The notes beneath the pieces were generated by a model. It had not been told where the DNA came from. It saw only the letters and a program-made list of their open reading frames with translations, and searched no databases. Source: Levilactobacillus fuyuanensis (GTDB taxonomy: Bacteria > Bacillota > Bacilli > Lactobacillales > Lactobacillaceae). From it: a stretch of 64,000 nucleotides of DNA. The translations under genes were made by a program, and so were the position numbers. Of the stretch, positions 6,155-28,320 are shown piece after piece. Where the stretch lies: positions 1-64,000 of the forward strand of contig NZ_RHNZ01000008.1 of the NCBI RefSeq assembly GCF_003946395.1, given 5' to 3'. Within the stretch, counting starts at the first letter, position 1; each line of letters begins with the position of its first letter.

Positions 6155-6373
6155 GGCAATAGTCAGTCTTCGCCTGCGGCTGCCAAGAATTCTGCCGCTG
6201 TGGGGACCGCCTGCAGCCAAAGGACGGGCTTCCGGCTTGGTTTGAAACCTCGCCAGGTTCAGGCGAGTTTCCAAACTCATCCCACGTTGTAAGGCCGGAA
6301 AGCCCACCGGTCTAACAACGTCGTCACGGCTAGCGCCATCCTTGGCCTCCTCCGGCTACGACAAGCTATTACC
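6155..6373 (+). repeat. Structured interspersed repeat, copy A (core 6170-6358)
   Basis: A full-length member of the six-copy family: it begins TCGCCTGCGGCTGCCAAG and ends CTTGGCCTCCTCCGGCTA. GCCAAG near the left end pairs with CTTGGC near the right end. Internal stems are CTCGCC/GGCGAG and GGGCTTCCGGC/GCCGGAAAGCCC. Outside the core, GGCAATAG (6155-6162) pairs with CTATTACC (6366-6373) with one mismatch. Open frames inside it are not convincing genes. It lies between maa and a small membrane protein gene. Confidence 0.85.
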
Positions 6374-6432
6374 CTGTCAAACACCCGTAGCATCGTATCA
6401 TAGTGGGTATTCATCACGAATAAACCCCTAGT

Positions 6433-6684
6433 TCATTGGCGGTTAGCTCTGATCAACGTGCCAATCCAGATTTTCAGACTCTCAATAATTAATATCAGAA
6501 TGAACAAGACCACATATACCGTGCAGAAAACTTCAATCCAGAACGACAACGACAGTGGTAACAAGAAACAAACGAGATCCAAGGTGGCCACTGGTCCCGT
6601 GGCCCATGCCAAAACTTTGAACCATTTTGGATATTTGGAAAATACGTTCACCCATGTGAATAGACTTAAAAATGTCTTCTTCAA
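6433..6684 (-). CDS. Small two-helix membrane protein
   Basis: An 83-residue protein with two hydrophobic segments (about 24-46, including ATGPVATLDLVCFLLPLSL, and 50-68) and a basic C-terminus. GGGGAG lies 6 nt before a TTG start, and TATAAT lies about 55 bp further upstream, so expression is plausible. I recognise no family. Its 3' end faces repeat copy A. Confidence 0.6.
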   Translation of the reverse strand: MKKTFLSLFTWVNVFSKYPKWFKVLAWATGPVATLDLVCFLLPLSLSFWIEVFCTVYVVLFILILIIESLKIWIGTLIRANRQ

Positions 6685-6826
6685 AATGTTCTCCCCTTTA
6701 GATCTAAGTCTTCAGATGACTCTAAGCCTAGTTTCCCCTGAAACACCTTAAATTATAGGCCTATCTGGTATCACCTCAGTTCAGCGTTGAAGATCTTCAA
6801 TAAACCTTAACTGCTTCGGTTTGTCC

Positions 6827-6858
6827 ATAAAAAAAGAATGAGCCACTAACACTCATTC
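6827..6858 (-). terminator. Terminator of the VOC gene
   Basis: On the minus strand GAATGAG pairs with CTCATTC around a nine-base loop and is followed by TTTTTTT. It lies about 36 bp past the VOC stop codon. Confidence 0.85.
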
Positions 6859-6894
6859 CTACAAAATTACTTATTTAATTGCACGCCACGATGC

Positions 6895-7359
6895 CTAGGC
6901 GTTGTCGTCCGCCGTTTCTCCTGGCATGGTCTGTTCACGCAAGATCCACGTGATGCCGTATGCATCGACGACCTGCCCCATCTTGCCTCCGGAGCTTTGT
7001 TCGCCGAAAGGACTGATGACCTTCACGTCGGACTTGAGCAGCCGTTGGTACAGACCCGCCAATTCCTTCACGCTGGCAGAGTCATCCGCATCGACGTCGA
7101 TCATTAACGAAATCAGCGTAGAAGACGTGGGTTGCCCCATCAAGGCGTCGGCACACTGAATGTCCAAGCCCAGAATCTTAAAACCACCGCTCATGGTCAT
7201 TTCGTCCAGGTTAACGGTAGGTGCTAACCCAAACTGTTCGACTTCCTCGGCCGTCGGGCTGACCCGGTAGGCGTTGGTTGCCCCAAAGACGCTCTGATAA
7301 TACGTAATGGCTTCTTTGGCGTTTTCAAATTCCAAATATGGAATTAACTTTGCTTGCAT
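6895..7359 (-). CDS. VOC (glyoxalase-fold) family protein, PhnB-like
   Basis: A 154-residue vicinal-oxygen-chelate protein of the PhnB / 3-demethylubiquinone methyltransferase-like group. It opens with KLIPYLEFENAKEAITYYQSVFGA and contains GQVVDAYGITWIL near the end, both typical. The canonical metal ligands of glyoxalase I are not evident, so enzymatic activity is uncertain. I start at the ATG coding MQAKLIP, where GGGG sits 8 nt upstream; two upstream in-frame starts lack a ribosome-binding site. Monocistronic. Confidence 0.8.
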   Translation of the reverse strand: MQAKLIPYLEFENAKEAITYYQSVFGATNAYRVSPTAEEVEQFGLAPTVNLDEMTMSGGFKILGLDIQCADALMGQPTSSTLISLMIDVDADDSASVKELAGLYQRLLKSDVKVISPFGEQSSGGKMGQVVDAYGITWILREQTMPGETADDNA

Positions 7360-7487
7360 CGTCGGTACCCCATTCATGACATAGTTTAGAAACAAATCGA
7401 CTGTCTAGTCACCGCTAGTCCGGTGCTAGTCTCCTCGATTAGATGAACCGTATTTTATCTCTAGCTGGTATTATACCCTTAATGGCC

Positions 7488-8384
7488 CTAAAACGGTAGG
7501 TCACGCAAGCCTTTTGCAATGTCAGCAAGTGACTGCTCGGCCGTTGTATGCTTCAGCGGTGCCTGTGAGGCAGCTGCTTTCGGTTGTTCATCGGCCGTCG
7601 AACTGACTGGCGTCACTGGGCGTGAAAGTGTCGTCTTTGCCGGCCGCTTTACCGTTGGCTTGACCGCGGCGTGATGGCGTTCTTGTCCCATTCCATCCAT
7701 CGTCTCGTTCAGCAAGTGATCCACGAACACGTTCCCTTGGTTGGTGGCGTGTCCCTTGGTCCACTGGTAGCTCAGCTGGGTAAATTGTGGCAATAAGCGA
7801 TCCACGTCCTGCCACAGCTCTGCATTGGCCAAAGGTCCCGCACTACGCTTCCAACCGCGACGTTTCCAGCCGGCTAGCCAGCCCTCAGTGACGGCGTTTA
7901 ACACGTAACGCGAGTCTAAGATAAATACAATACTGGTCTTATTCTGATTCAAGTCAACCAACTTCTGGAGCGCATTGCGAAACGCCATGATCTCCATCCG
8001 ATTATTGCTAGCCCCAAACTCACCATCGGAGCCGGTCACGACATCATTCGGTAATTCGATGCGGTAGGCCCAAGCAGCCTTATCACCGGTTCTTACGTGC
8101 CCACCAGCGACGTTACCGGTATTTCGCGAGCCACCATCTGTATAGACGGTAATCGCCGCAGAATCACTCTGAGAAGTCGTAGCCGTCCGGGGTGAACTGT
8201 GGTGTACCTTCTTGGGTGCGCTCGGCGTTGTCTGGCCTTGCATGAAGGCGTCTGCGGCACTCGCCGACGTAAAACTCTTGTATTGGGCCCCGGAATAACC
8301 GGTGACCTGCGCCTGTGTTTCCGCCCAGGTTCGGTAGACGCCGGGCTTACGACCGCGGCGAACTGCATAGTATTTCTGTGCCAA
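7488..8384 (-). CDS. rnhA: Ribonuclease HI with N-terminal hybrid-binding domain
   Basis: Cuts the RNA strand of RNA-DNA hybrids. Residues 1-45 form the caulimovirus viroplasmin-like hybrid-binding domain (KYYAVRRGRKPGVYRTW, GAQYKSF). After a Ser/Thr-rich linker comes the catalytic domain with Asp in VYTDGGSRN, Glu in NNRMEIMAF, Asp in ILDSRYVL, and WTKGHATNQGN followed by VDHL. A 70-residue Lys/Ala/Pro-rich tail follows, which is longer than usual. GAGGA overlaps an ATG but sits 6 nt before a TTG two codons later, so I use the TTG (8384); the ATG at 8390 is the alternative. Monocistronic and divergent from the next gene. Confidence 0.9.
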   Translation of the reverse strand: MAQKYYAVRRGRKPGVYRTWAETQAQVTGYSGAQYKSFTSASAADAFMQGQTTPSAPKKVHHSSPRTATTSQSDSAAITVYTDGGSRNTGNVAGGHVRTGDKAAWAYRIELPNDVVTGSDGEFGASNNRMEIMAFRNALQKLVDLNQNKTSIVFILDSRYVLNAVTEGWLAGWKRRGWKRSAGPLANAELWQDVDRLLPQFTQLSYQWTKGHATNQGNVFVDHLLNETMDGMGQERHHAAVKPTVKRPAKTTLSRPVTPVSSTADEQPKAAASQAPLKHTTAEQSLADIAKGLRDLPF

Positions 8385-8662
8385 ATTCATTCCTCGCTTT
8401 CGACCTAATCTAAATTAGTTTACCATAGATTTTCCCAACGCGACCAAATCCGTCATTACAGGACTTATGAAGCCGTTGCCAACATTATTAGGGCTGGGAA
8501 AAATTTTTTCTCAAATAAATTTGCCGCAAACCTTAAAAATCAATAATTTCAAAGTGTAAATTGTTTCCATAACTTTTAGATTATGCTAACCTAGTAGGTG
8601 TGAGTATTGGTCGGAGACTGTCCTAATTTACTCATTTTTCAAAATTTTTAAGGGGGTTTTTG

Positions 8663-9142
8663 ATGAAGAATCCAATCCATGCGTCCATTATTACCGTCGA
8701 CCAAGCCCGCGCGATGCTTAAGGACCAGCGAGAACAACGTGACGAACGTTTTCCACAGCTGGCCGCCTCCGGCCAATATATCTTACCAGACTATCGGTTA
8801 ACCCGTAAGCGTGAGGCCTTTAAGATTCGTCGGCATACTTTTTTAAAGAAACATTTCCGTTCCTACGTGGCATTTGATTCCGACAATGGTCAGACCTTGT
8901 GGATTCACAACTTCCCAAGCCTGTCCGAGGCCTGCTTCTGGTTAAACACCGGATTGAAGCCCAACGACACGGATTCGGCCGGCACTTACCAGGGCTGGAA
9001 GGAAGAACACGTCGCTGAGATTGAAGTGCTGAAGGATCAACTCCGCGCGCAACACAAAGAAAAGAAAAGGCCCGTTGCGGCACCGAAACCGGTAACCGTA
9101 ACGACTGTAAAAAAAGTAAAGCACGCTAAAGCTAAGAAATAG
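8663..9142 (+). CDS. Unknown basic protein
   Basis: A 159-residue soluble protein with a charged N-terminal half (QREQRDERFPQLAASGQY) and a Lys/Ala/Val-rich tail ending KKVKHAKAKK that resembles nucleic-acid-binding tails. No family recognised. GGGGG lies 6-7 nt before the ATG, and a strong terminator follows the stop, so it looks like a real single gene. The middle (YVAFDSDNGQTLWIHNFPSL) is probably a beta-rich fold. Function unknown. Confidence 0.7.
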   Translation: MKNPIHASIITVDQARAMLKDQREQRDERFPQLAASGQYILPDYRLTRKREAFKIRRHTFLKKHFRSYVAFDSDNGQTLWIHNFPSLSEACFWLNTGLKPNDTDSAGTYQGWKEEHVAEIEVLKDQLRAQHKEKKRPVAAPKPVTVTTVKKVKHAKAKK

Positions 9143-9154
9143 CGGCATTACATA

Positions 9155-9197
9155 AAGCGCCAACGATAGCCATTTGTGGTTATCGTTGGCGCTTTTT
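9155..9197 (+). terminator. Strong intrinsic terminator
   Basis: AAGCGCCAACGATA pairs with TATCGTTGGCGCTT, with an additional inner CCA/TGG, followed by a T-run. It ends the upstream plus-strand gene. Confidence 0.92.
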
Positions 9198-9219
9198 ATA
9201 TTGTTTGTTGTGTTCTGCA

Positions 9220-9318
9220 TCGCCTGCGGCTGCCAGGGATTCTACCGCTGTGGGGACCGCCTGCAGCCAAAGAACGGGCGTATAACTACTAGTAAACTAG
9301 CAGTTTCGCCAAGTTCCA
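9220..9318 (+). repeat. Structured interspersed repeat, copy B (3'-truncated)
   Basis: The left 60 bases match copies A and C closely, from TCGCCTGCGGCTGCCAGG through CTGTGGGGACCGCCTGCAG to ACGGGC. Similarity then becomes patchy, with a TCGCCAAGTTCCA block shared with copy C. The conserved right end is absent. The element stops about 12 bp before the codA stop codon, so its 3' half was lost or replaced. Confidence 0.8.
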
Positions 9319-9330
9319 CTACTCAAGAAC

Positions 9331-10566
9331 CTAGAGGTCTAAGTGAACCTGCTTGGGGTCCGTCTTAACAATGATCTTACCGTGGTGAATCGAATACAGA
9401 ACTTCTGAGCGCTTGTTCAACGCGTTATAGAAGTTATCGTTGTTCATGATGACCAAGTTGGCTGGCTTGCCCTCGGCGATACCGTAATGGTCGCCGACGT
9501 GCATGGCCTTGGCCCCGTTTGTCGTGACAAACTTGTAGGACTCGTTGATGTCATCATAACCCATCATCTGGGTGACGTGAATCCCCATGTGAAGGGCATC
9601 GAGCATGTTACCATCGCCCATTGGGTACCAAGGATCTTTGATATCATCTTCACCAAATGCCACGTTGACTCCGGCTGCGTTGAGTTCCTTGACCCGCGTC
9701 AAGCCCCGACGCTTAGGATAAGTATCGAAGCGGCCACCTAAGTGGGTATTGATCAGGGGGTTAGAAATCATGTTGATGTGTGACATCTGCAGTAAGCGCA
9801 TCAGCTTGTAAGCGTAAGCGTTGTTGTAAGAACCCATCGCCGTGGTGTGGCTGGCCGTGACTTGATCGCCCAAACCGGTTTCCAAGGCCAAAGTGGCTAA
9901 CGTTTCCAAGCCGCGGGAAGCAGGGTCATCGATCTCGTCACAGTGTGCATCGACCAGCTTGCCATACTTTTGTGCCAGCTCAACGGCGAAGTGTAGGGAT
10001 TCTACACTGTATTCACGCGTGAATTCAAAGTGCGGAATGGCTCCGATAACGTCGACGCCCAGCTTAGCAGCTTGTTCCATCAGTTCTTTACCGTGTGGGA
10101 ATGACAGGATACCTTCTTGAGGGAAGGCCACCAGCTGCAATTCGATAAAGTCTTTCACTTCGTCGCGCATCTCGATCAAGGCCTTCAGCGCCGTCAAATC
10201 CGGGTCGGTCACGTCCACGTGGGACCGGACAAACTGAACCCCATGGCTCGCCTGCAATTCCAATGCCTGCCGAGAACGGGTTTTAACGTCTTCAATGCTC
10301 AGCGTCTTCTTCCGTTCGGACCAGATCCGAATACCATCAAATAATGTGCCGGATTGATTCCATTCGGGATCCCCCGCCGTCATGGTACTGTCTAAATGGA
10401 CGTGTGGATCAACAAATGGTGGCAAAATCAATTTGCCGTGTGCATCGATCACCTGTTCATTATCCTTGGCCGTTAAATGATCGGCAATGGCGGTAAATTT
10501 ACCGTCCTCAATGCGAATATCCTGTGGCTGCGTTGCGTTTTCGATGAGACCTTGTTGAATTAACAT
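9331..10566 (-). CDS. codA: Cytosine deaminase
   Basis: Hydrolyses cytosine to uracil and ammonia (pyrimidine salvage), 411 residues, amidohydrolase fold. Metal ligands match the E. coli CodA pattern: HVH at 55-57 in VDPHVHLD, His in VDAHCDE, and the FGEDDIKDPWYP block carrying the catalytic Asp. AASHTTAMGSY-type residues (TASHTTAMGSY) are also conserved. AGGAGG is 13 nt before the ATG, a longer spacing than usual, and no better start is in frame. A small membrane protein gene lies 38 bp upstream and may be co-transcribed. There is no codB next to it; an NCS1 permease lies 41 kb away. Confidence 0.93.
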   Translation of the reverse strand: MLIQQGLIENATQPQDIRIEDGKFTAIADHLTAKDNEQVIDAHGKLILPPFVDPHVHLDSTMTAGDPEWNQSGTLFDGIRIWSERKKTLSIEDVKTRSRQALELQASHGVQFVRSHVDVTDPDLTALKALIEMRDEVKDFIELQLVAFPQEGILSFPHGKELMEQAAKLGVDVIGAIPHFEFTREYSVESLHFAVELAQKYGKLVDAHCDEIDDPASRGLETLATLALETGLGDQVTASHTTAMGSYNNAYAYKLMRLLQMSHINMISNPLINTHLGGRFDTYPKRRGLTRVKELNAAGVNVAFGEDDIKDPWYPMGDGNMLDALHMGIHVTQMMGYDDINESYKFVTTNGAKAMHVGDHYGIAEGKPANLVIMNNDNFYNALNKRSEVLYSIHHGKIIVKTDPKQVHLDL

Positions 10567-10604
10567 GCGCGTTAACCTACCTCCTACACTTTTTCATCTT
10601 AAAA

Positions 10605-10901
10605 TTAATAAAAACCGGGAATGGTCAGTCCGAGCAAAAGAATCGTACTGTCGGCAACCAACCCCAAGGCTACGGCAATGATACTCACCGTAGCGGGGAC
10701 TAGGCACCACCAGGGGCCCCTTTTCGCGGACCGAACTAACCCTACTAAGCTTATCACAGTTAGGACGAATCCGAACAATAAAGTCGCGGGTTCGTGGGGA
10801 AACCAACGGTAAACCGTTTGAACGGCGCCGACCAGTGCGTACCAGCTCACGACGAATCCAATCAAACTCCATCCTAATACAGACCATTGTTCACGTCTCA
10901 T
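10605..10901 (-). CDS. Small hydrophobic membrane protein
   Basis: A 98-residue protein with about four hydrophobic segments (WSLIGFVVSWYALVGAV, ATLLFGFVLTVISLVGLV, WWCLVPATVSIIAVALGLV and a terminal stretch). GAGGGG lies 9 nt before the ATG that gives MRREQW; a longer frame extends upstream but lacks a ribosome-binding site. No family recognised. The 38-bp gap to codA suggests a two-gene unit, so a role linked to nucleobase uptake is possible but unproven. Confidence 0.6.
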   Translation of the reverse strand: MRREQWSVLGWSLIGFVVSWYALVGAVQTVYRWFPHEPATLLFGFVLTVISLVGLVRSAKRGPWWCLVPATVSIIAVALGLVADSTILLLGLTIPGFY

Positions 10902-11154
10902 CGTTTTCATCCCCTCGTCCCCATTTTCTGTCGCTAGCAATAACTTAACTAGCTTCAACTTACTCGGCCAGTCGCGAACTAGCGAGCAAACCACCCTTGT
11001 TCGCGGGGTCACCGAACATTGCCGCAGATAGTATCTAGCCGCCGCAACCCACCGTTGCGCTAACAAATATATTTATCAAACTTCCCGGTCGTCTTTTCAC
11101 CATGGTCTGTGCTATGCTGGAAGCTATAATACTGACAGCGGAGGTTACTTAATC

Positions 11155-11973
11155 ATGGTAAATTCATACCCACAAGCCCTCACCATCGCGGGTTCCGATA
11201 GCGATGGTAGTGCCGGCATGCAGGCTGATCTGCACACCTTCTTTGCGCGGCGCGTCTATGGTGCCTCGGTCATGACCGCCTGCGTGGCCGGAAACTCTTA
11301 CGGTATTCACGCTAGCATCCCAATGCCCACAGATTTTATCGATCAGGAATTCAAGGATCTAGCGGACGACTACCACATCAGAGCATCTAAGACTGGGATG
11401 CTGGCCGACTCAGAGTTAATCAACGATGTCGTCAAGAACTACCAAGCCGCCGACTTCGGCCCCTTAGTGGTCGATCCGGTCATCATGACCAAACACGGCA
11501 ACCAACTCCTGGAAGAAAGTGCCTTCAATACACTACGCACGGCACTCATCCCGCTGGCAACGGTACTGACACCGAACTTCTTTGAGGTTGAAAAGCTAGC
11601 CGAGATGTCGATTACAACTGATGCCGATATGGAAACAGCGGCCCACAAGCTTCAAGCGATGGGTGCCAAGAACGTGATTGCTAAGGGCAGTCATGCCGAC
11701 CCCACCCAGAAGGTCGTGAAGGACTTTGTCTTACTGGAATCCGGCGAGAGCTTCTGGCTGAGTGAACCCTACCACGAAACTGACCGGGTCAACGGTACCG
11801 GGGACTCCCTCTCCGCCTGCATCACGGCGGAACTGGCCAAGGGCACGCCAATGAAACGGGCCATCGAAATTGCCAAGCAATTCGTCAACGCTGCGATTGG
11901 CTCGCCAATTGAAGTCGGCCACAAATTTGGGCCGGTTAACCACTGGGCAGCAATGGATCGCAATTTTAAGTAA
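11155..11973 (+). CDS. pdxK: Pyridoxal/hydroxymethylpyrimidine kinase (ThiD/PdxK family)
   Basis: A ribokinase-fold kinase phosphorylating pyridoxal-type vitamers or hydroxymethylpyrimidine. TIAGSDSDGSAGMQADLHTF is the classic N-terminal block, VVDPVIMTK gives the substrate/metal region, and VNGTGDSLSACI holds the catalytic Asp. ThiD enzymes usually read GTGCTLS here, so GTGDS points more to a pyridoxal kinase of the Gram-positive PdxK type. 272 residues, normal length. GGAGG lies 10 nt before the ATG and a TATAAT box sits about 25 bp upstream of that. Monocistronic, ending at a hairpin terminator. Confidence 0.88.
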   Translation: MVNSYPQALTIAGSDSDGSAGMQADLHTFFARRVYGASVMTACVAGNSYGIHASIPMPTDFIDQEFKDLADDYHIRASKTGMLADSELINDVVKNYQAADFGPLVVDPVIMTKHGNQLLEESAFNTLRTALIPLATVLTPNFFEVEKLAEMSITTDADMETAAHKLQAMGAKNVIAKGSHADPTQKVVKDFVLLESGESFWLSEPYHETDRVNGTGDSLSACITAELAKGTPMKRAIEIAKQFVNAAIGSPIEVGHKFGPVNHWAAMDRNFK

Positions 11974-11981
11974 AAACTAAA

Positions 11982-12019
11982 GTAGCTAGGTCATTCTCAA
12001 GACGAGAAGACCTAGCTGC
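11982..12019. terminator. Terminator between pdxK and the convergent minus-strand pair
   Basis: GTAGCTAGGTC pairs with GACCTAGCTGC (one mismatch), with an inner CTC/GAG step. T-rich sequence follows on both sides, so it can serve both directions. Confidence 0.75.
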
Positions 12020-12056
12020 TTGTTCAGTCGCTTTATTTTAGATTCGTTAAAAAATA

Positions 12057-13751: not shown

Positions 13752-13782
13752 TAAGAAGTTGTTGGTCGTCAGACCTTATTAG

Positions 13783-13856
13783 GTCGCAATAGCTCAGCTG
13801 GATAGAGCAACGGTCTTCTAAACCGTAGGTCGAGGGTTCGAATCTCTCTTGCGACA
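13783..13856 (+). tRNA. tRNA-Arg (anticodon UCU)
   Basis: A 74-nt cloverleaf: the acceptor stem GTCGCAA pairs with TTGCGAC, the D-arm carries AGCTCAGCTGGATAGAGC, and the anticodon stem ACGGT/ACCGT holds the loop CTTCTAA with anticodon TCT. The T-arm reads GAGGGTTCGAATCTCTC and the discriminator base is A. CCA is not encoded. It reads AGA codons. It is a single tRNA gene with its own promoter and terminator, not part of a tRNA cluster. Confidence 0.97.
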
Positions 13857-14168: not shown

Positions 14169-14261
14169 GTAAAACCACCACCTTAATTAGTTACTCCCAT
14201 CATAAACTGACCGCCCCAACAACTCAAACAATTCGCCTTTCGGGTGATAACTAGAGACAAT

Positions 14262-14290
14262 AAAAAAACACCAACCGAAGTTGGTGTTTT
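14262..14290 (-). terminator. Terminator of the cold-shock gene
   Basis: On the minus strand AAAACACCAAC pairs with GTTGGTGTTTT around a four-base loop, followed by a T-run. Confidence 0.92.
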
Positions 14291-14315
14291 CTACGACTCA
14301 GTTTAGGCTAATAAA

Positions 14316-14519
14316 TTAGTCGACAACTGATACGTTAGCAGCTTGTGGGCCACGGTCGCCTTGTTCTACATCAAGGGAAACGTGTTGGCCTTCTTCAAGC
14401 GTCTTGAAGCCTTCGCTGTTGATAGCAGAGAAGTGAACGAAAACGTCTGAGCCGTTTTCCAAAGTGATGAAGCCGTAACCTTTATCAGCGTTGAACCATT
14501 TAACAGTACCTTGTTCCAT
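14316..14519 (-). CDS. csp: Cold-shock protein, CspA family
   Basis: A 67-residue single-stranded RNA/DNA-binding chaperone of the OB fold. [15 protein letters not shown] holds RNP1 and DVFVHFSAI holds RNP2. GGAGG lies 10 nt before the ATG that gives MEQGTVKWF; an open frame continues 23 codons upstream but has no ribosome-binding site and is leader. The leader is about 115 nt, typical of cold-shock mRNAs. Monocistronic. Confidence 0.96.
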
Positions 14520-14671
14520 AAGAATGAAACCTCCATGCGCATAGCGCAATAATATTTGCATTTGAAAGCTGGGGTAAAAAGGAGCCATTCTTATAAGAAC
14601 GTCGAGCCTTTAAAACTTCCGAACCATAAATACATTAACCATAGGATAACAGGTATTTCCCAGAATAGCAA
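14520..14671 (-). promoter_or_regulatory. Promoter and long 5' leader of the cold-shock gene
   Basis: TTGCTA (14666-14671) and TATCCT (14643-14648) are 17 bp apart on the minus strand. The predicted transcript carries a leader of about 115 nt before the ATG. Long leaders of this kind refold at low temperature in other csp genes; I have not identified a specific thermosensor fold here. Confidence 0.6.
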
Positions 14672-16858: not shown

Positions 16859-16973
16859 AGTGTCCCTCCGTCCTCGTTCTCCCCATTCTAGCGAATCCCC
16901 CGCCTGCCGACAAGTATCCCGCACAACTAAGCCTTGACGCGCCGCCATTGCTCCCCTATCATCAGGGAAGAAT

Positions 16974-17204
16974 ATTGGTTAAATGTTTTTTCGCCTGCGG
17001 CGGTCAGGGATTCTGCCGCTGTGGGGACCGCCTGCAGCCAAGAAGCGGGCTTCCAGCTCGGTTTAGAACCTCGCCAAAGTTCCAGCGAGTTTCCAAACAC
17101 GTCCCATGCTGTAAGGCCGGGAAGAACCAACCGCCCGGTCTAACACCATTTTCACGGCTGGCGCCATCCCTAACCGCCTCCGGCTAAGCTAACATTTAAT
17201 CAAT
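16974..17204 (+). repeat. Structured interspersed repeat, copy C (core 16991-17186)
   Basis: A full-length 196-bp core. GGTCAGGGAT near the left end pairs with ATCCCTAACC near the right end (9 of 10), where copy A uses a different pair. The CTCGC/GCGAG internal stem is retained. Outside the core, ATTGGTTAAATGTT (16974-16987) pairs with AACATTTAATCAAT (17191-17204), 13 of 14. It fills the gap between the divergent mutY and oppA genes. Confidence 0.88.
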
Positions 17205-17357
17205 TTCTTATCCTGAAGGCGGAACAAAATAAAAGCGTCTGTGGACACTCATTTTCGCATTTCTTAAACCATTGGCAGTTATGGCATACCAGCCATCGCT
17301 GACAATAATCACTTACATATAAAGAAAACAAATAGGTTAACAATCGGAGGAAACATC

Positions 17358-19010
17358 GTGAAACGTTGGGGAATACTTCTTATTATAGCGATCTGTAGCG
17401 CCCTGAGTGGTTGCACGATCAGTCACGAAACGGATACACCTAGTGATAGCAAAGGGGTCATGTCCCAGGATCAGGTTTTAAATCTGGCTTCCCACCATCC
17501 CCTGACCACGTTGGACACCGACAAGCTCACGCAATTTGGTCGACTGAACAATACCATTGAGGGGCTCTACCAGGCCACGAGCAACAACAATACCGAACTG
17601 GCCCTGGCTAAAAAGGTTAAAATCAGCGCCGACAAGCAGACCTATACCTTTACGCTTTGGAAGGATTCGTACTGGAGTAACGGCGACGTGATTACTGCTC
17701 CCGACTTCGTCTTCTCCTGGCGACGTGCCTTGATGCCACAAACCAAGGCACCTGAGGCCGACCTTTTTGACGGCATTAAGAACGCCCGGCAAATTCTGGA
17801 CGGCGAGTTGCCGGCAAGCCAGCTAGGGGTCACGGCACCTAGTAAGTTCAAATTGGTCGTGCGCCTCGACCATCCCATGGCGGAGCTCCCGCAACGACTG
17901 ACCTATCCCCTCTTTGGCCCGCAGAATCGACGCATCGCCGTCAAATACGGCAAGCGCTACGCTACGAAGCCGCGCTACCAAGTCTATGCCGGTCCCTTCA
18001 TGGTCGCCAATCGTGGCAGCTCCAAATGGCGCTGGCATATGATTCCCAACCCTCACTACTGGGACCGTAAGCACGTCTACCTTAGCCGCATCAACGTGGT
18101 GACCTATAAGTCCGCTTCAACAGCGTGGGACGCTTACGACCATGGTCGTTTAGACGAGATGCGCATCATGGGGAAATCCGACGTCAAATACTACGAAAAA
18201 AAGGCCGACTACACTGCCCGACCTTACTCCAAAATGGTCCTCCTCAATTATCGCCAAACGGGGAAGGATTCGAAGACAAACCGTCTGCTTCAACAAAAGC
18301 TCGCCCGGTTAGCCATTTCCCACGCCATCAACCGGAAGCACCTGGTCAAAGAAGCCTATGGGAACACCTCGCTGACCGCTCAGGGTGTCGTCCCAGCTGG
18401 CCTGAGCCGCGGACTCAAGGGAACGGCCGACTTTGCCGCCGCACAGCCCGAACAAGCCACTCTTGCTTACAGTCCCAAGACAGCCAAAGCAGAGTGGCAG
18501 ACCGCGACCAAGCGGGCCGGTGTCACTCACATAGGCCTCTCGCTGGGCTATGTGGGCGACACAAATAGCCCTGCCGTCGTCAAAACGCTCAAACATCAGT
18601 TGGAAGCCAACCTGCCCGGCCTGACGATTTCCCTTAAAAAGCACGTACAGGCTCTCAATGCGCGGGCAGTTCCAGTTACGTCAGATCTCACCTTAACAAC
18701 CCAACGGGCCCAGTACGCCGATCCACTGGCGGTGCTCTCCCTGTTTACCAGTAATAACAGCGCAAATGTTGGCCACTGGTCCAGCAAGACCTACGACCAG
18801 TTGATTGACCGGGCCAGCAATGCCCCTACCTTCAATTCTAAGCGGTGGCAGACACTATTAAGTGCCGAGGGCTTACTGATGCGCGATCAGGGGGTCACGC
18901 CGCTCATACAGCCTGCCAGCACCTACCTGGTCGACCCCAAGCTCAATGGGGTGCTCTACAATACCATTGGCACTCAGTCAAACTTCAAGAGTGCTTACTT
19001 TGTAAAATAA
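17358..19010 (+). CDS. oppA: Oligopeptide ABC transporter substrate-binding lipoprotein (OppA type)
   Basis: A 550-residue extracellular lipoprotein that captures peptides for an Opp importer. Signal peptide 1-18 ends in the lipobox ALSGC, with Cys19 lipidated. SBP_bac_5 features include YWSNGDVITAPDFVFSWRRAL and NPHYWDRKHVYLSRIN. GGAGG is 7 nt before the GTG start. No permease or ATPase genes adjoin, so it must supply a transporter encoded elsewhere, or act as a pheromone or peptide receptor. It is related to the second OppA at 28.3-30.0 kb but lacks the attenuator. Monocistronic. Confidence 0.92.
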   Translation: MKRWGILLIIAICSALSGCTISHETDTPSDSKGVMSQDQVLNLASHHPLTTLDTDKLTQFGRLNNTIEGLYQATSNNNTELALAKKVKISADKQTYTFTLWKDSYWSNGDVITAPDFVFSWRRALMPQTKAPEADLFDGIKNARQILDGELPASQLGVTAPSKFKLVVRLDHPMAELPQRLTYPLFGPQNRRIAVKYGKRYATKPRYQVYAGPFMVANRGSSKWRWHMIPNPHYWDRKHVYLSRINVVTYKSASTAWDAYDHGRLDEMRIMGKSDVKYYEKKADYTARPYSKMVLLNYRQTGKDSKTNRLLQQKLARLAISHAINRKHLVKEAYGNTSLTAQGVVPAGLSRGLKGTADFAAAQPEQATLAYSPKTAKAEWQTATKRAGVTHIGLSLGYVGDTNSPAVVKTLKHQLEANLPGLTISLKKHVQALNARAVPVTSDLTLTTQRAQYADPLAVLSLFTSNNSANVGHWSSKTYDQLIDRASNAPTFNSKRWQTLLSAEGLLMRDQGVTPLIQPASTYLVDPKLNGVLYNTIGTQSNFKSAYFVK

Positions 19011-20704: not shown

Positions 20705-20791
20705 GTTGAAATCATCGCCTGCGGCTGCCAGAATTCCGCCTGCTGGGGGACCGGCTCCATCCTGACCTCCTCCGGCTAAGTAAATTTCAAC
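20705..20791 (+). repeat. Structured interspersed repeat, copy D (64-bp minimal form)
   Basis: Keeps only the two ends: TCGCCTGCGGCTGCCAG on the left and CCTGACCTCCTCCGGCTA on the right, with about 30 bp between. The core is 20715-20778. Outside it, GTTGAAAT (20705-20712) pairs perfectly with ATTTCAAC (20784-20791). It lies in the lplA/gcvH divergent gap and is an internal-deletion derivative. Confidence 0.85.
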
Positions 20792-21890: not shown

Positions 21891-21906
21891 CCGGCTGTTT
21901 CAACCT

Positions 21907-21940
21907 AAAAATAACCCCGCCAATTGGTGGGGTTATTTTT
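21907..21940 (+). terminator. Terminator of the acidic protein gene
   Basis: AAAATAACCCC pairs with GGGGTTATTTT, with CCAATTGG inside, followed by a T-run. It also faces the convergent phosphatase gene. Confidence 0.93.
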
Positions 21941-21951
21941 GTTACCTTATT

Positions 21952-22575
21952 TTAATTTAATTGCGGACTCACGCTATAGAATTTTAAATAGCGATGGCCC
22001 GTGGCCGGATCAATTACCATGCGCGTCACGCTGGTATTGGTCGGTTCTGGTAACGCAGTGGTCGCCGGTGCCGCCAACATCAACAGTGCCGTCGCCTTGA
22101 TGGTCAGGCCATGGCTAACGACCAGAATGTGATCATCAGGATGATCCACGACCTGCTCGGCCAACCACTGGCCGACCCGGTGCTGAATCGCCAGATAAGA
22201 CTCACCACCTACGGACGCCAAAACATCCGGCAGCGCCTCGCCAGTGACCGCATCAAAATCCTGCGGCCGTTGCTCGCTGACCGCCAGTAAACTTTTACCG
22301 GTCCAGTCGCCGTAATCGGCTTCCATCAGTCGGTCATCAAATGATGGCGTTAAGGCCATCATCGTTGTCAGCGCGGCAGTGGTCTGTCGCGTCCGGTGCA
22401 GTGGGCTACTGATCAATTGATTGTAGTGCTCGCCGTGCAGCCACTGCGCGAGATGCTCAGCTTGCTGCAGACCGCGGACCGTCAAGTGGGTGGCCGTTGT
22501 ATCCAATTGTCCTTGCATAATTTGATCCACGTTGGCCTGTGTTTGCCCGTGGCGTACCCAATCGAAAGTCGTCAT
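21952..22575 (-). CDS. Histidine phosphatase (phosphoglycerate mutase-like)
   Basis: A 207-residue branch-1 histidine phosphatase. The phospho-accepting His lies in WVRHGQTQAN, Arg and Glu in SSPLHRTRQT and LMEADYGDW, and the second His in LVVSHGLTI. Proteins of this size are usually small-molecule phosphatases rather than glycolytic mutases. Substrate unknown. It may be co-transcribed with the DMT transporter 23 bp upstream. Confidence 0.88.
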   Translation of the reverse strand: MTTFDWVRHGQTQANVDQIMQGQLDTTATHLTVRGLQQAEHLAQWLHGEHYNQLISSPLHRTRQTTAALTTMMALTPSFDDRLMEADYGDWTGKSLLAVSEQRPQDFDAVTGEALPDVLASVGGESYLAIQHRVGQWLAEQVVDHPDDHILVVSHGLTIKATALLMLAAPATTALPEPTNTSVTRMVIDPATGHRYLKFYSVSPQLN

Positions 22576-22598
22576 TTGTTAGTCACTTCCTACTCCCA

Positions 22599-23570
22599 TT
22601 AGAGCTCTTTCGCGGTGTTTCGTCGACCCCGCTGGAGTAAATAAATTGCTACGATCACTAAGACTGACCCAATCACCTCGGCACCCGAGATGGCCAAGCC
22701 GAGGAAGATGATCGACAGAATGAAGGTCATCACCGGCTGAACGGCATCCACGATACTGATCACGTCAGATGGCGCAAAGTGGGTGCTGTAGAGAATCAGT
22801 GAGAAAGGCACGATGGTCCCAAAAACAATAACTGTGGCCATCGAAGCAATCAGCGTCCCCGTCAATGGTGGCGTGCTGACCCACACGGGTTGATGCAAGT
22901 TAAAGATAATCCCGGCGATAAACGTTCCCCACCCAAGTACGGTGATTGGCGAGTGACCACCCCGGACCAACGGCCGTGGCAGAACTACGTAGCAGGCAGC
23001 GGTGATCCCAGAACCGATTCCCCAAAGTAGCGAATCGAATGGAATGGCCAGCTGAGATAAGTTTCCCCGCGTAATGGCCAAGAAGACCCCCACCATCGCG
23101 ATGGCAAACGCAATCAGGTCACTACGTAGTGGCCGATTATGTTTAAATAGCAAACTCCCTAACACGATAAATAGTGGGCTCAAGTACTGTAGAATCGTCG
23201 CCGCAGCGGCATTCCCGGTCTGAACCGCGATGTAGAAAGTCAGTAGGTTTGCACCCAGTCCAATGACCGCGTAGGCAACCAGCCAGCCAACCTCACGCCA
23301 GCTACTGAAGACCGCAAAAGTCTTCTTCCAGCCATACAAGATAAAGCTAATAATGAGCAACACCACACCAGCGCCTAATGTCCGCGCTGACAAGAACCAA
23401 TTGGTCGGAATGGATTGCCCCTGTGAAATAAACTGCAAAACTGTTCCGGACACCCCAAACATCGCTGAAGCAATGGTGGCCCAGAAAATACCCTTGATGA
23501 CGTTCCCCGTCGATACCTCTGAATTTTTCAAACCTGTGAATCCTTTCTCTCTCACACTCACGGCGTGCAT
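22599..23570 (-). CDS. EamA/DMT-superfamily transporter
   Basis: A 323-residue membrane protein with ten helices in two EamA repeats (about 25-165 and 175-315), typical of drug/metabolite exporters for amino acids and similar solutes. The ATG is preceded by GGAG at 7 nt; an alternative TTG at residue 14 also has AAAGGA upstream. Substrate unknown. Probably in one unit with the downstream histidine phosphatase. Confidence 0.85.
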   Translation of the reverse strand: MHAVSVREKGFTGLKNSEVSTGNVIKGIFWATIASAMFGVSGTVLQFISQGQSIPTNWFLSARTLGAGVVLLIISFILYGWKKTFAVFSSWREVGWLVAYAVIGLGANLLTFYIAVQTGNAAAATILQYLSPLFIVLGSLLFKHNRPLRSDLIAFAIAMVGVFLAITRGNLSQLAIPFDSLLWGIGSGITAACYVVLPRPLVRGGHSPITVLGWGTFIAGIIFNLHQPVWVSTPPLTGTLIASMATVIVFGTIVPFSLILYSTHFAPSDVISIVDAVQPVMTFILSIIFLGLAISGAEVIGSVLVIVAIYLLQRGRRNTAKEL

Positions 23571-23670
23571 TATAATTCTCCAATTTTACCCGATGTTCAT
23601 TAGAATTTGATGGTAAAACGGCGAAAAAGATCGGTTGTGGCCAACTTTTTTCAATTGCCTAACATCATAC

Positions 23671-23704
23671 AAAAATGGACGTGACTTCACAACGCGTCAC
23701 GTCC
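23671..23704 (-). terminator. Terminator of the metQNI operon
   Basis: On the minus strand GGACGTGAC pairs with GTCACGTCC around a nine-base loop, followed by ATTTTTGT. It is about 10 bp past the metI stop codon. Confidence 0.92.
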
Positions 23705-23714
23705 ACAAGCCCAC

Positions 23715-24398
23715 CTAGGCTGTGTGGTCCACACGCCGGGCGAGTAAGTCTCCAATTAATTGAATAGCAAACACGATAACTAAGATAATCAACATCGCCA
23801 TGACGGTCACGTCGGTTTCAAATCGACTGTAACCAACGTTGATGGCCAAGTTACCTAAACCACCACCCCCGATGGCACCAGCCATCGCGGTCAGGTCGAT
23901 CAGACTGATCAACGTTAGGACGGACGAGCGGATAATATCCGGAAGCCCTTCTTTTAAGTAAACGCGAAAGATAATGGCAATCGGACCAGAACCAACGGAC
24001 TCGGCAGCTTCAACCACCCCATGGTCAACTTCGGCCAAGGCGTTTTGAATCTGACGGGCATAGAACGGTGCGGAACCAATGACCAGCGGCACAATGGCTG
24101 CGGTCGTCCCAATCGCCGTCCCCACAATGATCCGGGTCAGCGGTGCAATCACGGCCAGTAAGATAACGAATGGGATCGACCGGCACAGGTTAACCAGCTT
24201 ATCCAAGATGTTATAAACGACGCGATTTTCCAAGATGCCACCGGGTTGGGTGACAATCAAACCAATCCCGATAGCCATCCCAATAATCCCGGCAACAATG
24301 GCCGTAATAGCCGTCATGTAGAGGGTTTCGCCGGTCGCCTGCAGGAAGTCACTCTTAATCGTGACCGCGTTAGGAAAGTATTTTGCTAATAAATTCAC
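23715..24398 (-). CDS. metI: Methionine ABC transporter permease MetI
   Basis: A 227-residue inner-membrane permease with five to six helices. The EAA loop that contacts MetN is VEAAESVGSGPIAIIFRVYLKEGLP (split over the interface helices), and the NVGYSRFET tail is typical. It starts directly after the metN stop codon. It forms MetN2I2 with the upstream ATPase and receives methionine from MetQ. Last gene of the operon. Confidence 0.94.
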   Translation of the reverse strand: MNLLAKYFPNAVTIKSDFLQATGETLYMTAITAIVAGIIGMAIGIGLIVTQPGGILENRVVYNILDKLVNLCRSIPFVILLAVIAPLTRIIVGTAIGTTAAIVPLVIGSAPFYARQIQNALAEVDHGVVEAAESVGSGPIAIIFRVYLKEGLPDIIRSSVLTLISLIDLTAMAGAIGGGGLGNLAINVGYSRFETDVTVMAMLIILVIVFAIQLIGDLLARRVDHTA

Positions 24399-25460
24399 TT
24401 AGGCCACCTCCGAATCGTTAGGGTTCAAATGGGTAATGTTGATGCCGGCATCCTGACAGTATTGCCAAGCGGCAGCCAACTTATCCGGTTCACCAGACAT
24501 CACCACAATCAAGTTACCCAACGGCGTGTCCTGCAGAATTTCAACGTTTCCATATAAGATGTTTGAGACCACACCATACCGTTTATACAACTCGGTAATC
24601 AGTGGTGCATCGGTGCTAGCACCCACATACTGTAGCTGAACCAATTGCTGGCTCTCACTGAGATTGAGGGTTGCCGCTTGCCGGAAAATCTTTTCCAGCG
24701 CCTGGTTGATCTGCGTCGCCGTATTGATGAAGTCCTGCGTCAGCGGCTTTTCTGGTCGACTAAAGATTGTGACCAGATCGCCCCGTTCGATGATTTCCCC
24801 AGCTTCCATGACGGCAACCTTGTTGCAAATTTCCTTAACGGCTTCCATTTCATGGGTAATCAGTACAACCGTCAAATCTAATTCCTTGTTCAACCGCTTC
24901 AGTAATTCCAAAATGGATGAAGTGGTCTTGGGGTCCAACGCACTGGTTGCTTCATCACTGATCAGAATTTCTGGATCATTCGCCAAGGCTCTGGCAATGG
25001 CGACCCGCTGCTTCTGGCCACCAGAAAGTTGGGCAGGATAATCCTCGGCCTTTTCACTCAGGCCAACCAGGTCCAACAGGTGAGCAACCTTCTTCTTCCG
25101 CTCATCGCGGGCAAGCCGACCCTTTAAGGGGTAGCCAACGTTATCCGCAATCGTCCGGGAAGCCATCAGGTTAAAGTGTTGGAAGATCATCCCAATTTTC
25201 GTCCGCGCAGTCCGTAACTCGCGGGGATTCAAGGCCAGAATGTCCTGACCACTGACCTCTACGGAACCGGCAGTAGGCCGTTGGAGCCGGTTGATGACCC
25301 GCACCAACGTACTCTTCCCGGCGCCGGAATACCCGACGACCCCGTAGATGTCGCCGCGCTCTACCGTCAGCGAAACCTTTTTAACGGCTTCAACGGTCTG
25401 TCCCTTATTATGGAAGGTGACGTCGATATCTTTTAACTGAATAATCGCTTCGTTAGTCAA
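24399..25460 (-). CDS. metN: Methionine ABC transporter ATPase MetN
   Basis: A 353-residue ATPase: Walker [14 protein letters not shown]-loop FQHFNLM, signature LSGGQKQR, Walker [13 protein letters not shown] and His in LITHEME. The C-terminal NIL domain (about 270-345) is present; in homologues it senses internal methionine and inhibits transport. The TTG start has GGAG 9 nt upstream. A stable hairpin separates it from metQ and may set relative mRNA levels. Confidence 0.95.
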
Positions 25461-25545
25461 ATCTTCGTTCTCCTTACTCGCCTATGCTGGCAATTTTCTC
25501 TCTACTTATGTGTTAACTCTCCAACCCCACCGTCGACAGCGCTCA

Positions 25546-25590
25546 GGCACCATTGCTGTGAGGATACCATCATCAGCACAGCACGGTGCC
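25546..25590 (-). promoter_or_regulatory. Intercistronic hairpin between metQ and metN
   Basis: GGCACC pairs with GGTGCC and GCTGTG with CACAGC around a long loop. No T-run follows, so it is more likely an mRNA processing or stability element than a terminator. The metQ to metN gap is about 200 bp, large for an ABC operon. Confidence 0.55.
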
Positions 25591-25659
25591 CGTCAGTCAT
25601 CAACGATCTTTAGTTGGTTAGCTTAAATTAACGTGATGCCTTTGACAATGCGCTTCTGT

Positions 25660-26475
25660 TTACCAAGCTGGAATGGTCAAGCCGTGGTAGTACTTCGTCA
25701 ACAACTTCTTCGTGGCTTCAGTCTGGTAAGCCTTCACGATCTTCTTGTAGGTCTTGTTGTTCTTATCAGACTTGTTGGTAGCGATGATGTTGATGTAAGG
25801 AATGGAAGCCTTGTTGATCTTTTCCTTGAAGATGGTTTCGCTGTTTGGCAACTTAGCTTCAGCAGCGAACTCGTTGTTGATAACGGCCCCGGTAGCATCG
25901 GTCAATGAACGTGGTGTTTGCGCAGCGTCAACGGCGGTAATCTTCAAGTTCAACTTGTTTTGCGTGATGTTCTTTGGTGTTGGTAATTCAACCTTGGAAT
26001 CCACCTTAATCAAGCCAGCGGATTGCAGTAAATGTAAAGCCCGGCCTTCATTGGTTGAATCATTAGGAATGGTTATTTGGTCACCCTTCTTGATGTCAGA
26101 AACGTTCTTAACCTTCTTGGAGTATAACCGTAGTGGTGCGCGGACGGTCTTGCCGATGGCAACGATGTTAGACTTGTGCGCCTTGTTCCATTGGTCCATG
26201 AAGTACGTGTGTTGGAAAGAGTTCAGGTCAATTTCGTGGTTCGTCAACGCAGCGTTAGGCTGGTTGTAATCGGTGAAGGTCACCAGCTTGATGTTGATCC
26301 CTTGCTTTTTCAGCTTTGATTGGATAGGTTTCCAGATCTTTTCGTCGGAACCCATGATCCCAACTTTAACAGTCTTGTTGCTGGAACTACTGCTGGACTT
26401 ACCACAACCAGCAACGATTAACAATGGAATCAATAATACCAAGAGCCAACTAAAGTGTTTAAATGATTTCTTCAT
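25660..26475 (-). CDS. metQ: Methionine-binding lipoprotein MetQ
   Basis: A 271-residue extracellular lipoprotein of the NlpA/MetQ family. The signal peptide ends in IVAGC with Cys24 lipidated, followed by a Ser-rich linker. VKVGIMGSDEKIW, HEIDLNSFQHTYFMDQW and ITIPNDSTNEGRALHLLQ are the usual ligand-site blocks. AAGGGG is 9 nt before the ATG; a TTG two codons earlier is too close. First gene of metQNI, behind a T-box, so methionine starvation should raise its expression. Confidence 0.95.
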   Translation of the reverse strand: MKKSFKHFSWLLVLLIPLLIVAGCGKSSSSSSNKTVKVGIMGSDEKIWKPIQSKLKKQGINIKLVTFTDYNQPNAALTNHEIDLNSFQHTYFMDQWNKAHKSNIVAIGKTVRAPLRLYSKKVKNVSDIKKGDQITIPNDSTNEGRALHLLQSAGLIKVDSKVELPTPKNITQNKLNLKITAVDAAQTPRSLTDATGAVINNEFAAEAKLPNSETIFKEKINKASIPYINIIATNKSDKNNKTYKKIVKAYQTEATKKLLTKYYHGLTIPAW

Positions 26476-26540
26476 ACTCAATATCCCCTTTATAATAAGT
26501 CATAATTAATTTGTTTAAATGTCGCGAGAGAAAACGGTGA

Positions 26541-26840
26541 CCAAAAGAAAAGAGTCCGCTTCTAAATTAATAGAAACGAACTCTGTCGTGGTACCATTCT
26601 AATTCAAGTCAGACGTATGCCGACCCCTCATTAACACTCGCCAGCTTGCGCCTTAAAGTGCGTGCACGATAATGAGTGCCAAGCATTACCACTTCATCAC
26701 TAGGACTTAGCAGTACCAATTCATTTCAGGCCATCTTCACCCCGCCGTGGGTTACTCGCTTTCAGCAAAACGCGAGCTCTCTTGAAACCATTGACGGTGG
26801 TTACTCTCCTGATCACATTGTTTTCAATCGCTTAATTTAA
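26541..26840 (-). promoter_or_regulatory. T-box riboswitch (predicted methionine-specific)
   Basis: The minus-strand leader carries the T-box core GAATGGTACCACG (26588-26600) and stem I landmarks (GAGAGTAACCACC near the start). The antiterminator is followed by the terminator GAGTTCGTTTCTA/TAGAAGCGGACTC (26552-26583) with a T-run. An ATG specifier candidate lies at 26722-26724 within CTGAAATGAATT, which fits a methionine tRNA and the metQNI genes. The specifier loop was placed by eye. Confidence 0.88.
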
Positions 26841-26845
26841 TAGCA

Positions 26846-26874
26846 AGTCTAATGCAACTTTAATCCGCTGTCAA
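26846..26874 (-). promoter_or_regulatory. Promoter of the metQNI T-box transcript
   Basis: TTGACA (26869-26874) and TAGACT (26846-26851) on the minus strand are exactly 17 bp apart, immediately upstream of the T-box. Confidence 0.8.
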
Positions 26875-26986
26875 GGAAAACCTTTAATAAATTTATTTAT
26901 AAGGAGCCCCGTCCCACCGGGCTTTTACCGCTACGTCTACTTTTCAATCGGTTTCAAGCGTACGGAAATTCTCACGTAAATTTCAC

Positions 26987-27535
26987 TTAATCCCCGATAA
27001 TCTGCTCTTGCAAGATGCCAGCTGCCAGTAAGAACATGTGCGTCACGACTGGACCGACAAAGCTGAAGCCCCGTCGCTTTAAATCCTTGGCGACGGCACT
27101 ACCAATAGCCGACTGATTGGTCAGCGCATCACGGGTCACTGCCGGTAGAAGATACGGTGTCCCATCAACAAACGCCCACAGGTAGGCACTGAAGCTACCA
27201 AACTCCGCCTGTACTTTAAGGATGGCCCGTGCATTCCGTAAAACGGCATGGATTTTACGCTGATTGCCAATCATCTCGGGATCGGTAGCAATCTCGGGAA
27301 TTGCCAGCTCATCAATCATCGCGGCCACTTTGGGAATCGTCATGCCGGCAAAAACCCGCCGGTAGACTGGTAGCTTGCTGGCCGCCGCCTGCCAACTCAA
27401 GCCGACTTGGAACACACCAACCGTGAGGAGCTCAAACAGAACGTGGTCATCGTAAGTGGGTGTTCCGAAATACGCGTGGTACTCCTGCACGCCATCCGTA
27501 TGCCAGTCTTGGCCGTCATTTGGACTGATAGTCAT
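26987..27535 (-). CDS. Tag-family 3-methyladenine glycosylase paralogue with altered active site
   Basis: A 182-residue HhH-fold protein of the Tag family. EYHAYFGTPTYDDHVLFELL, FQVGLSWQAA and RRGFSFVGPVVTH match Tag. By alignment on GLSW, the base-contacting Glu (E. coli Glu38) is Gly40. Of the zinc ligands only His20 remains; the N-terminal Cys and the C-terminal His and Cys are missing (AAGILQEQIIGD). It may recognise a different lesion or be non-catalytic. AGGAGG precedes the ATG; a longer frame upstream runs into repeat E and is not coding. A canonical Tag lies at 39 kb. Confidence 0.82.
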   Translation of the reverse strand: MTISPNDGQDWHTDGVQEYHAYFGTPTYDDHVLFELLTVGVFQVGLSWQAAASKLPVYRRVFAGMTIPKVAAMIDELAIPEIATDPEMIGNQRKIHAVLRNARAILKVQAEFGSFSAYLWAFVDGTPYLLPAVTRDALTNQSAIGSAVAKDLKRRGFSFVGPVVTHMFLLAAGILQEQIIGD

Positions 27536-27605
27536 GTTCAGCCGCCTCCTTTGATTGCTAAAATCCATTGTACACGAAGCTAGGGCAGATTGCGATTGAC
27601 CTTGG

Positions 27606-27815
27606 GTTTGCGAGCCTGTCGCCTGCGGCTGCCAGGAATTCCGCCTGCTGTGGGGACGCTTCAGCCTGAGAAACGGGCTTCTCGCTCGATTTGAAGCCAC
27701 GAAGAACACGTGTCTCCAAAGTCGCCCGTGATGTAAACCGGCCTAAAACGCCAGTTAACATCACCTCCACGGCTGGCTGCATCCCTGACCTCCTCCAGCT
27801 AAAACAGCTCTCAAC
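27606..27815 (+). repeat. Structured interspersed repeat, copy E (core 27619-27801)
   Basis: A 183-bp core starting TCGCCTGCGGCTGCCAGG and ending CCTGACCTCCTCCAGCTA, where the right end differs from the others by one base. GTTTGCGAGCCTGT on the left is an imperfect inverted repeat of AACAGCTCTCAAC on the right. It lies just upstream of the Tag paralogue, about 340 bp from copy F in the opposite orientation. Confidence 0.85.
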
Positions 27816-27923
27816 ATGCCACACCGAGTCCACAACAAGAAGCTTTCAAGTCATAAGCGTCACGTCATGAACTTACCCAGCCATCCCTATCATTCTTCAT
27901 TCCTGAACATTCACGCATAGACA

Positions 27924-27965
27924 AAGACCATTAATCCTGGCGTTTGGTCCAGAATTAATGGTCTT
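27924..27965. repeat. Isolated inverted repeat between copies E and F
   Basis: AAGACCATTAAT pairs perfectly with ATTAATGGTCTT, with CTGG/CCAG inside. On the minus strand a short T-rich tail (TTTGTCT) follows, so it may be the real terminator for oppA at 28.3 kb. Otherwise the 27,816-28,137 stretch holds no gene that I can see. Confidence 0.6.
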
Positions 27966-28137
27966 CTTGGGAAATAACTGTACGGCATCACGACACTCTA
28001 GCTGGGAAAGCTACCCCAAAATCATTCCGTGCCCACCACTGATGATTTGTTAGAGAATCATGAACCGACAGTCTTTCAGCTGACTGAAATTTTCCCGTTA
28101 TATCTACAATATGAATAACAACAAGTACTCACGATTA

Positions 28138-28320
28138 ATAAATAGTTGACGGTAAATCTAGCCGGAGGAGGTCAGAAACGTAACCGGTCATGGGACGCAC
28201 TTGAAAACACATGCCTTTCGTGGCTTCAAGTCGAGGATCAAGACCGCTCTCAGGCTTGATCCGCTCCCCACAGCAGGTGGCGTTTCTGACAGCCGCAGGC
28301 GAGATCCACCTGCTATTTAA
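28138..28320 (-). repeat. Structured interspersed repeat, copy F (core 28159-28302, reverse orientation)
   Basis: Read on the minus strand it begins TCGCCTGCGGCTGTCAG and ends CTGACCTCCTCCGGCTA. GTCAGAAACG near the left end pairs perfectly with CGTTTCTGAC near the right end, a third distinct pair at the position of GCCAAG/CTTGGC in copy A. The flanks TAAATAG and CTATTTA also pair, and the latter overlaps the oppA stop codon. Confidence 0.88.

Follow-up and report, generated by a model that had tools for sequence, protein, structure and literature searches.

The window analysed here is a stretch of 64,000 nucleotides of Levilactobacillus fuyuanensis (contig NZ_RHNZ01000008.1, positions 1 to 64,000). 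It carries six copies, A to F, of a folded repeat that belongs to a high-copy structured family; the family is real and apparently undescribed. We consider it probable that its members are an old, non-coding family of mobile DNA in Lactobacillaceae, similar to miniature inverted-repeat transposable elements (MITEs), whose fixed copies stay folded, perhaps as hairpins at gene ends. The family is larger than the six sites noticed in a first-pass annotation made from the letters of the window; a second subfamily, the inverted pairing of copies and copy-specific flanking inverted repeats are additions to it.

The building block would be a module of ∼180–196 bp, folding as a single strand into an outer stem, the base of which carries fixed mismatches, and a three-armed junction. 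The mobile unit was probably a head-to-head pair of modules, type I and type II on opposite strands, bounded by 18-bp terminal inverted repeats and by direct repeats such as a trans-acting transposase would leave; this anatomy was seen in G343, a genome of another genus, and we infer it for L. fuyuanensis. Part of the fold is still kept, probably because a hairpin flanked by A/T tracts would end or protect transcripts.

The repeat family, its fold and its spread

Throughout the 2.72 Mb genome the left block of the repeat has 131 matches (at most two mismatches) against one for the reversed control. The type I covariance model (R1), built from 26 copies, gave at least 148 matches at E ≤ 1e-3; 146 copies were kept after removal of two rows overlapping opposite-strand hits, and of these five fall short of 60 bits. 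The weaker matches in the vicinity of strong ones proved to form a second subfamily, type II, whose stems differ but follow the same plan; its model found at least 61 copies above 105 bits, the remaining matches, at 93 bits or less, being type I cross-matches. As the best 150 candidates were scored in each own-genome search, copy numbers are lower bounds: at least 207 model matches in total (146 of type I and 61 of type II), 202 of them above 60 bits.

The module forms a clover-leaf with an outer stem (∼20 positions), a second stem (GCTGTG/CACGGC) and three arms at a junction. Columns 2/198, 6/194 and 8/192 at the stem base hold a pyrimidine–pyrimidine mismatch in all 26 aligned type I copies; columns 82/103 hold one in 25 of the 26. 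Both partners changed in 31 of 61 pairs of type I (26 copies; covariation score 0.264 versus 0.124 ± 0.006 in shuffled alignments) and in 41 of 64 pairs of type II (30 rows; 0.409 versus 0.158 ± 0.007); in both types compensatory changes are well above shuffled and slid controls. For type I, a measure of further pair types did not go beyond shuffles (89 of 500 reached it). None of 200 shuffles folds as well as copy C taken as RNA, whichever strand is used, or as copy C with its flanks taken as DNA; the fold of copy E is weaker, being equalled by four of 200 shuffles. The structural claim of the first-pass annotation, namely that the family is dispersed, structured and free of proteins and shows compensatory changes, therefore holds: the fold is kept while the letters change. 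Its term ‘structured non-coding elements’ is right as to the conserved fold, which covariation shows, but covariation does not prove that the copies are transcribed RNAs. Strong covariation can arise from mobile DNA and is by itself no proof of a functional RNA.

Within the window the left block was found at the six sites first reported (0.24 matches expected in shuffles). The right block has five matches (0.04 expected), copy B being without a right end, and the GCTGTGGGGA block, said to be common to all six, is exact in five of the copies and missing from copy D. The stems quoted for copies A, C and F are present to the letter, and both orientations do occur, five copies on the plus strand and one on the minus strand:

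6170..6358, plus strand: copy A, 189 bp, full length, type I; 193 bits with model R1
9220..9279, plus strand: copy B, about 60 bp, left part only, without right end
16962..16987, plus strand: left flanking arm of copy C
16991..17186, plus strand: copy C, 196 bp, full length, type I
17191..17216, plus strand: right flanking arm of copy C, for the most part complementary to its left counterpart
20715..20778, plus strand: copy D, 64 bp, internal-deletion derivative
27619..27801, plus strand: copy E, 183 bp, full length, type I; left mate of inverted pair E/F
28159..28302, minus strand: copy F, 144 bp; right mate of inverted pair E/F

The spacer within pair E/F is 357 bp. Copy C lies between a promoter-like stretch, TTGACG/TATCAT (16934–16962), and an SBP_bac_5 gene (17358–19010), the leader of which it lengthens; this promoter-like stretch is recognisable upstream of the gene across congeners. 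The window also holds a tRNA gene (13783–13856, plus strand) and a cspA thermoregulator RNA (14261–14620, minus strand; Rfam match of 92.8 bits).

The covariance-model search of related Lactobacillaceae genomes that had been proposed was carried out genome-wide with the type I model. It matched 31 of 34 congeners (no match in G015, G021 and G031), at least 67 of 301 genomes and at least 10 of 40 genera over the whole family (the best eight candidates scored per genome), and none of 23 genomes from other families of the order. A 17-mer scan of genome contigs gave at least 111 stretches, and the 80 listed were mostly from other phyla. When 41 loci with the 17-mer (22 of the 80 listed plus 19 viral ones) were scanned with the model, six matched: five on Levilactobacillus contigs (parabrevis twice, suantsaiihabitans, lindianensis and koreensis) and one in a metagenome-assembled genome of an uncultured Lactobacillus sp.; a model match was absent from two Levilactobacillus loci (enshiensis L086 and parabrevis L161). 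A plasmid- or phage-borne element is unlikely: copy C had no blastn match and the 19 viral contigs with the 17-mer gave no model match. A known Rfam family is unlikely as well, none matching at E ≤ 1 around copy C or at the gathering score over the window elements, in agreement with the initial statement that no named family is known. A description of the family was absent from those parts of the open literature that were searched, subscription journals and ISfinder being outside the scope.

Head-to-head pairs and the unit of G343

Copies in L. fuyuanensis are often found in inverted pairs. Among 44 neighbour pairs less than 600 bp apart, 40 had the orientation ‘+ −’, three ‘+ +’, one ‘− −’ and none ‘− +’ (this count took in 208 copies, the 207 and one uncertain match). 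Pair mates are 0.673 identical (18 pairs) versus 0.720 for random copies; being less alike than random copies, they are not recent inverted duplicates of each other.

The clearest picture of a mobile unit came from G343, where we judged the 30 best-scoring of 150 matches. A type II core lay on the opposite strand beside type I at 25 of the 30 loci. At 12 of the 30, an 18-bp terminal inverted repeat, with an end sequence like ACTAAAGGTTGAAAG, was present on both sides, delimiting units of 473–552 bp; nine of these 12 units had direct repeats of at least 5 nt, versus 4.8% when ends were re-paired. The repeats measured 7–10 nt, of which up to 3 nt may belong to the terminal repeat. A 15-nt end motif occurred at 109 places in this genome and the reversed control at none. 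The G343 units carry the signature of a MITE. Identity to a known MITE had been named at the outset as something that would refute the first interpretation; in kind this was partly borne out, the elements being inside a MITE-like unit in G343, though we could find no named MITE to match it. Two short units in this genome, C3:33116-33436 (∼320 bp) and C2:386870-387072 (∼200 bp), share the end motifs and have no listed model match inside; they are perhaps further deletion derivatives.

Comparison with a sister species

Copies of the family in L. fuyuanensis look old. The nearest paralog of a type I copy is at most 0.933 identical, none of 132 reaching 0.95. Both flanks were found in the fetched DNA of the sister species G007 for 72 of the 146 type I sites, and at 46 of the 72 the sister species has a model match. 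Among 11 short-gap G007 sites that were aligned, eight keep a remnant of the element and three (C23:13856, C34:145105 and C45:153454) are without one; the latter may be empty or cleanly lost, and their flanks are only weakly self-complementary (equalled by 6, 15 and 15 of 200 shuffles). There is no sign of recent spread, and the copies are largely common to the two species.

Individual sites illustrate these outcomes. Copy A has a counterpart at the identical site of G007 (0.937 identity); the orthologous place of the shortened copy D holds a full-length R1 match there (185 bp, 146 bits); at the site of copy C only a remnant is left. Of the element at G000:C54:103925 the orthologous G007 site retains just TCGCCTGCGGCTA, in which a CGG common to both ends marks their fusion; a deletion across the hairpin would be expected to leave such a remnant.

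A strict set of orthologs was made of the 23 same-site pairs, out of 46, with at least 0.88 identity, the other 23 being excluded; this choice overstates conservation. Changes were seen at 137 of 2743 paired sites and 149 of 1607 unpaired sites (p = 8e-8), a rate about half as high in paired positions. Among 1354 base pairs there were 100 single and 16 double changes (3.2 expected), six of the latter from one Watson–Crick pair to another. A looser set (at least 0.75 identity, 33 same-site pairs) gave 90 double changes versus 16.6 expected; since slid controls rose too (29–47), we relied on the strict set. The fold thus remains partly preserved, but the covariation mostly goes back to older divergence between copies. 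Much of the covariation to which the first-pass annotation pointed therefore lies between copies.

At least four same-site pairs below 0.88 identity differ in type between the two species, one holding type I and the other type II. One example is L286:1694-1880 (the window's species, type I) and L402:2102-2287 (G007, type II), which stand at an identical gene end, each element with its own flanking arms; at some such sites the left flank is shared.

Flanking arms, strand and position near genes

The 45-nt flanks of 142 copies are complementary to each other: the score is 18 or more in 61% of copies versus 5.7% when flanks are re-paired. The left arm reaches into the left open reading frame (ORF) in 18 of 72 strong cases and, as it runs into a neighbouring ORF, looks native; an arm reaching the right-hand ORF was seen in none of the 72, few being testable. 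At copy C the outer part of the left arm (TCAGGGAAGAA and close variants) is found in congeners without the element at that site, and no right arm was visible to us there. Ordinary terminators are an unlikely explanation of the arms: their GC content is 0.37, and the 10 nt after the right arm are T-rich in 15 of 72 cases versus 12 of 72 control windows.

The arms may have come from insertion into existing palindromes, from template switching or from fold-back synthesis at insertion. One could propose that hairpin correction at the DNA level, i.e. a switch of template from one arm of a quasi-palindrome to the other, and not selection for a folded molecule, keeps the pairing, and that copying of a native flank across the element made the copy-specific arms. 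The same-copy complementarity and the native look of the left arm would fit; however, correction should have erased the mismatches that are fixed at columns 2/198, 6/194, 8/192 and 82/103, the arms do not change in concert significantly between G007 and L. fuyuanensis (18 double changes versus 12.2 expected) and in G343 they show little excess (17% versus 10%), which leaves this explanation rather unlikely. More speculative, and in our opinion unlikely, is the idea that insertion itself writes the outer stem: the free end of the inserted strand would fold back and copy ∼30 nt of native left flank, and each copy would be born in a private, site-derived hairpin. If true, it would be an inverted, not a direct, target duplication, unlike the transposon classes known to us. 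A further alternative is that a reverse transcriptase or a Y1 transposase drives the family, as a retro-element or a REP/RAYT-like element; strand asymmetry and a native left flank with an inverted right copy would fit snap-back synthesis, and the genome does have four Y1 genes. The distribution of the genes largely refutes such a driver and makes it extremely improbable: RVT_1 genes are missing from L. fuyuanensis and G007 and present in 10 of 34 congeners; Y1 is missing from 11 element-bearing congeners and occurs in G021 and G031, where the type I model found none; and the four 3.4-kb Y1 loci contain no element ends. REP and REPIN elements, which are associated with RAYT transposases, are likewise intergenic hairpins in inverted pairs with hundreds of copies, but REPs are short single hairpins and the Y1 genes here do not follow the element.

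Two further alternatives place the function in transcripts. In those pairs that are mostly Watson–Crick, type I shows on the strand as read here A.C 196 times versus G.T 73 times (128 alignment rows); A.C exceeds G.T in 39 pairs versus seven with the reverse (p = 2e-6), and type II shows 56 versus 23, per pair 20 versus nine (p = 0.06). As A.C on this strand is G.U on its complement, the data suggest that the complementary strand, if one strand matters, is the folded one; the fixed pyrimidine–pyrimidine mismatches would there become purine–purine. A family of small RNAs transcribed independently from that strand is nevertheless very unlikely. Promoter-like signals reading into the copies are no commoner than in shuffles, making a dedicated promoter unlikely; unpaired sites lean the same way, though less strongly (A/G 0.077 and C/T 0.054 per site), so mutation may explain part of the A.C excess; and unpaired A exceeds T on the strand as read (0.26 versus 0.24 in type I, 0.31 versus 0.19 in type II), which points the other way. 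Alternatively, each copy could function in cis within transcripts, as a bidirectional terminator or a 3′-end stabiliser, with spread being secondary. Gene contexts, taken from a mechanical ORF caller (at least 90 aa) and not from annotation, bear on this in both directions. A same-sense ORF precedes 89 of 145 copies. Left ends come soon after stop codons with no T-run between (42 of 142 copies less than 45 nt behind a same-sense ORF, TTTTT between in one) or just past a T-run (29 of 142 copies at 45–110 nt, TTTTT between in 19); for about half of the copies a stop codon or a terminator directly precedes the element. Within 14 nt of the element, 31 of 142 copies have TTTT on the right (background 8%) and 35 of 142 have AAAA on the left (background 5%), and the halved rate at paired sites would agree with a cis function too. 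However, in 56 of 145 copies the left ORF points away, so that the element stands at an ORF start; copy C sits in a 5′ leader; and where a stop codon is close, TTTT after the element is only mildly more frequent (12 of 42 versus 5 of 29 and 6 of 37). We regard the primary cis element as improbable, and infer a role as gene-end hairpin for copies of a family that probably spread as mobile DNA.

The mobile-DNA reading agrees with the copies being non-coding, short, multi-copy and intergenic by the same ORF caller, some of them overlapping called ORFs. Several observations weigh against it. In L. fuyuanensis 123 of the 208 copies have no neighbour inside 600 bp; no terminal repeat common to the copies was found, the outer flanks of 37 pairs having been tried and rejected as one; and a scan for direct repeats at fixed offsets found none, although the same scan missed the positive control of G343. 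Nowhere in this genome could a site be shown to be a new insertion bearing a target repeat, the further examination having covered all but 14 of the 72, and conservation among the 23 orthologs is overstated, as said. An autonomous partner was sought in G343 only, and no inverted pair of end motifs 1–3 kb apart was seen among the 100 of 109 places listed. The modules are GC-rich (0.51–0.70), and MITEs are typically AT-rich (PMC10969869). The family behaves like a MITE and, in the genus of G343, carries the MITE signature; for L. fuyuanensis itself membership is not proven.

Prokaryotic MITEs such as QMITE2 are non-coding and intergenic, with terminal inverted repeats and direct repeats of 7–9 bp (PMC10969869), and the G343 unit fits this description; the present family differs in that no shared terminal repeat was found in L. 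fuyuanensis, in its interior of covarying clover-leaf modules and in being GC-rich. SPRITE of Streptococcus pneumoniae is a dispersed folded repeat with AAAA/TTTT ends, enriched near gene 3′ ends and thought able to act as a terminator, with slow current insertion (PMC3049150). Our family shares with it the dispersed fold, the A/T ends and the position near gene 3′ ends; SPRITE, however, is AT-rich with an 18-bp duplex, while the modules described here are 180–196 bp long, GC-rich, three-armed and of two subfamilies in inverted pairs (PMC3049150). BOX and RUP of S. pneumoniae also combine MITE-like features, extensive secondary structure and high copy number; going by their descriptions, the present family is set apart by having one three-armed module type, by its inverted pairs and by its occurrence in 10 genera of another family (PMC3049150).

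A folded element with ∼200 copies and relatives in at least 10 genera of Lactobacillaceae appears to be missing from Rfam and from the portion of the open literature searched. Its hundreds of copies are natural replicates for asking whether selection acts on the fold of a mobile DNA, by what route repeats turn into gene ends and what gives rise to the copy-specific hairpins in the flanks.

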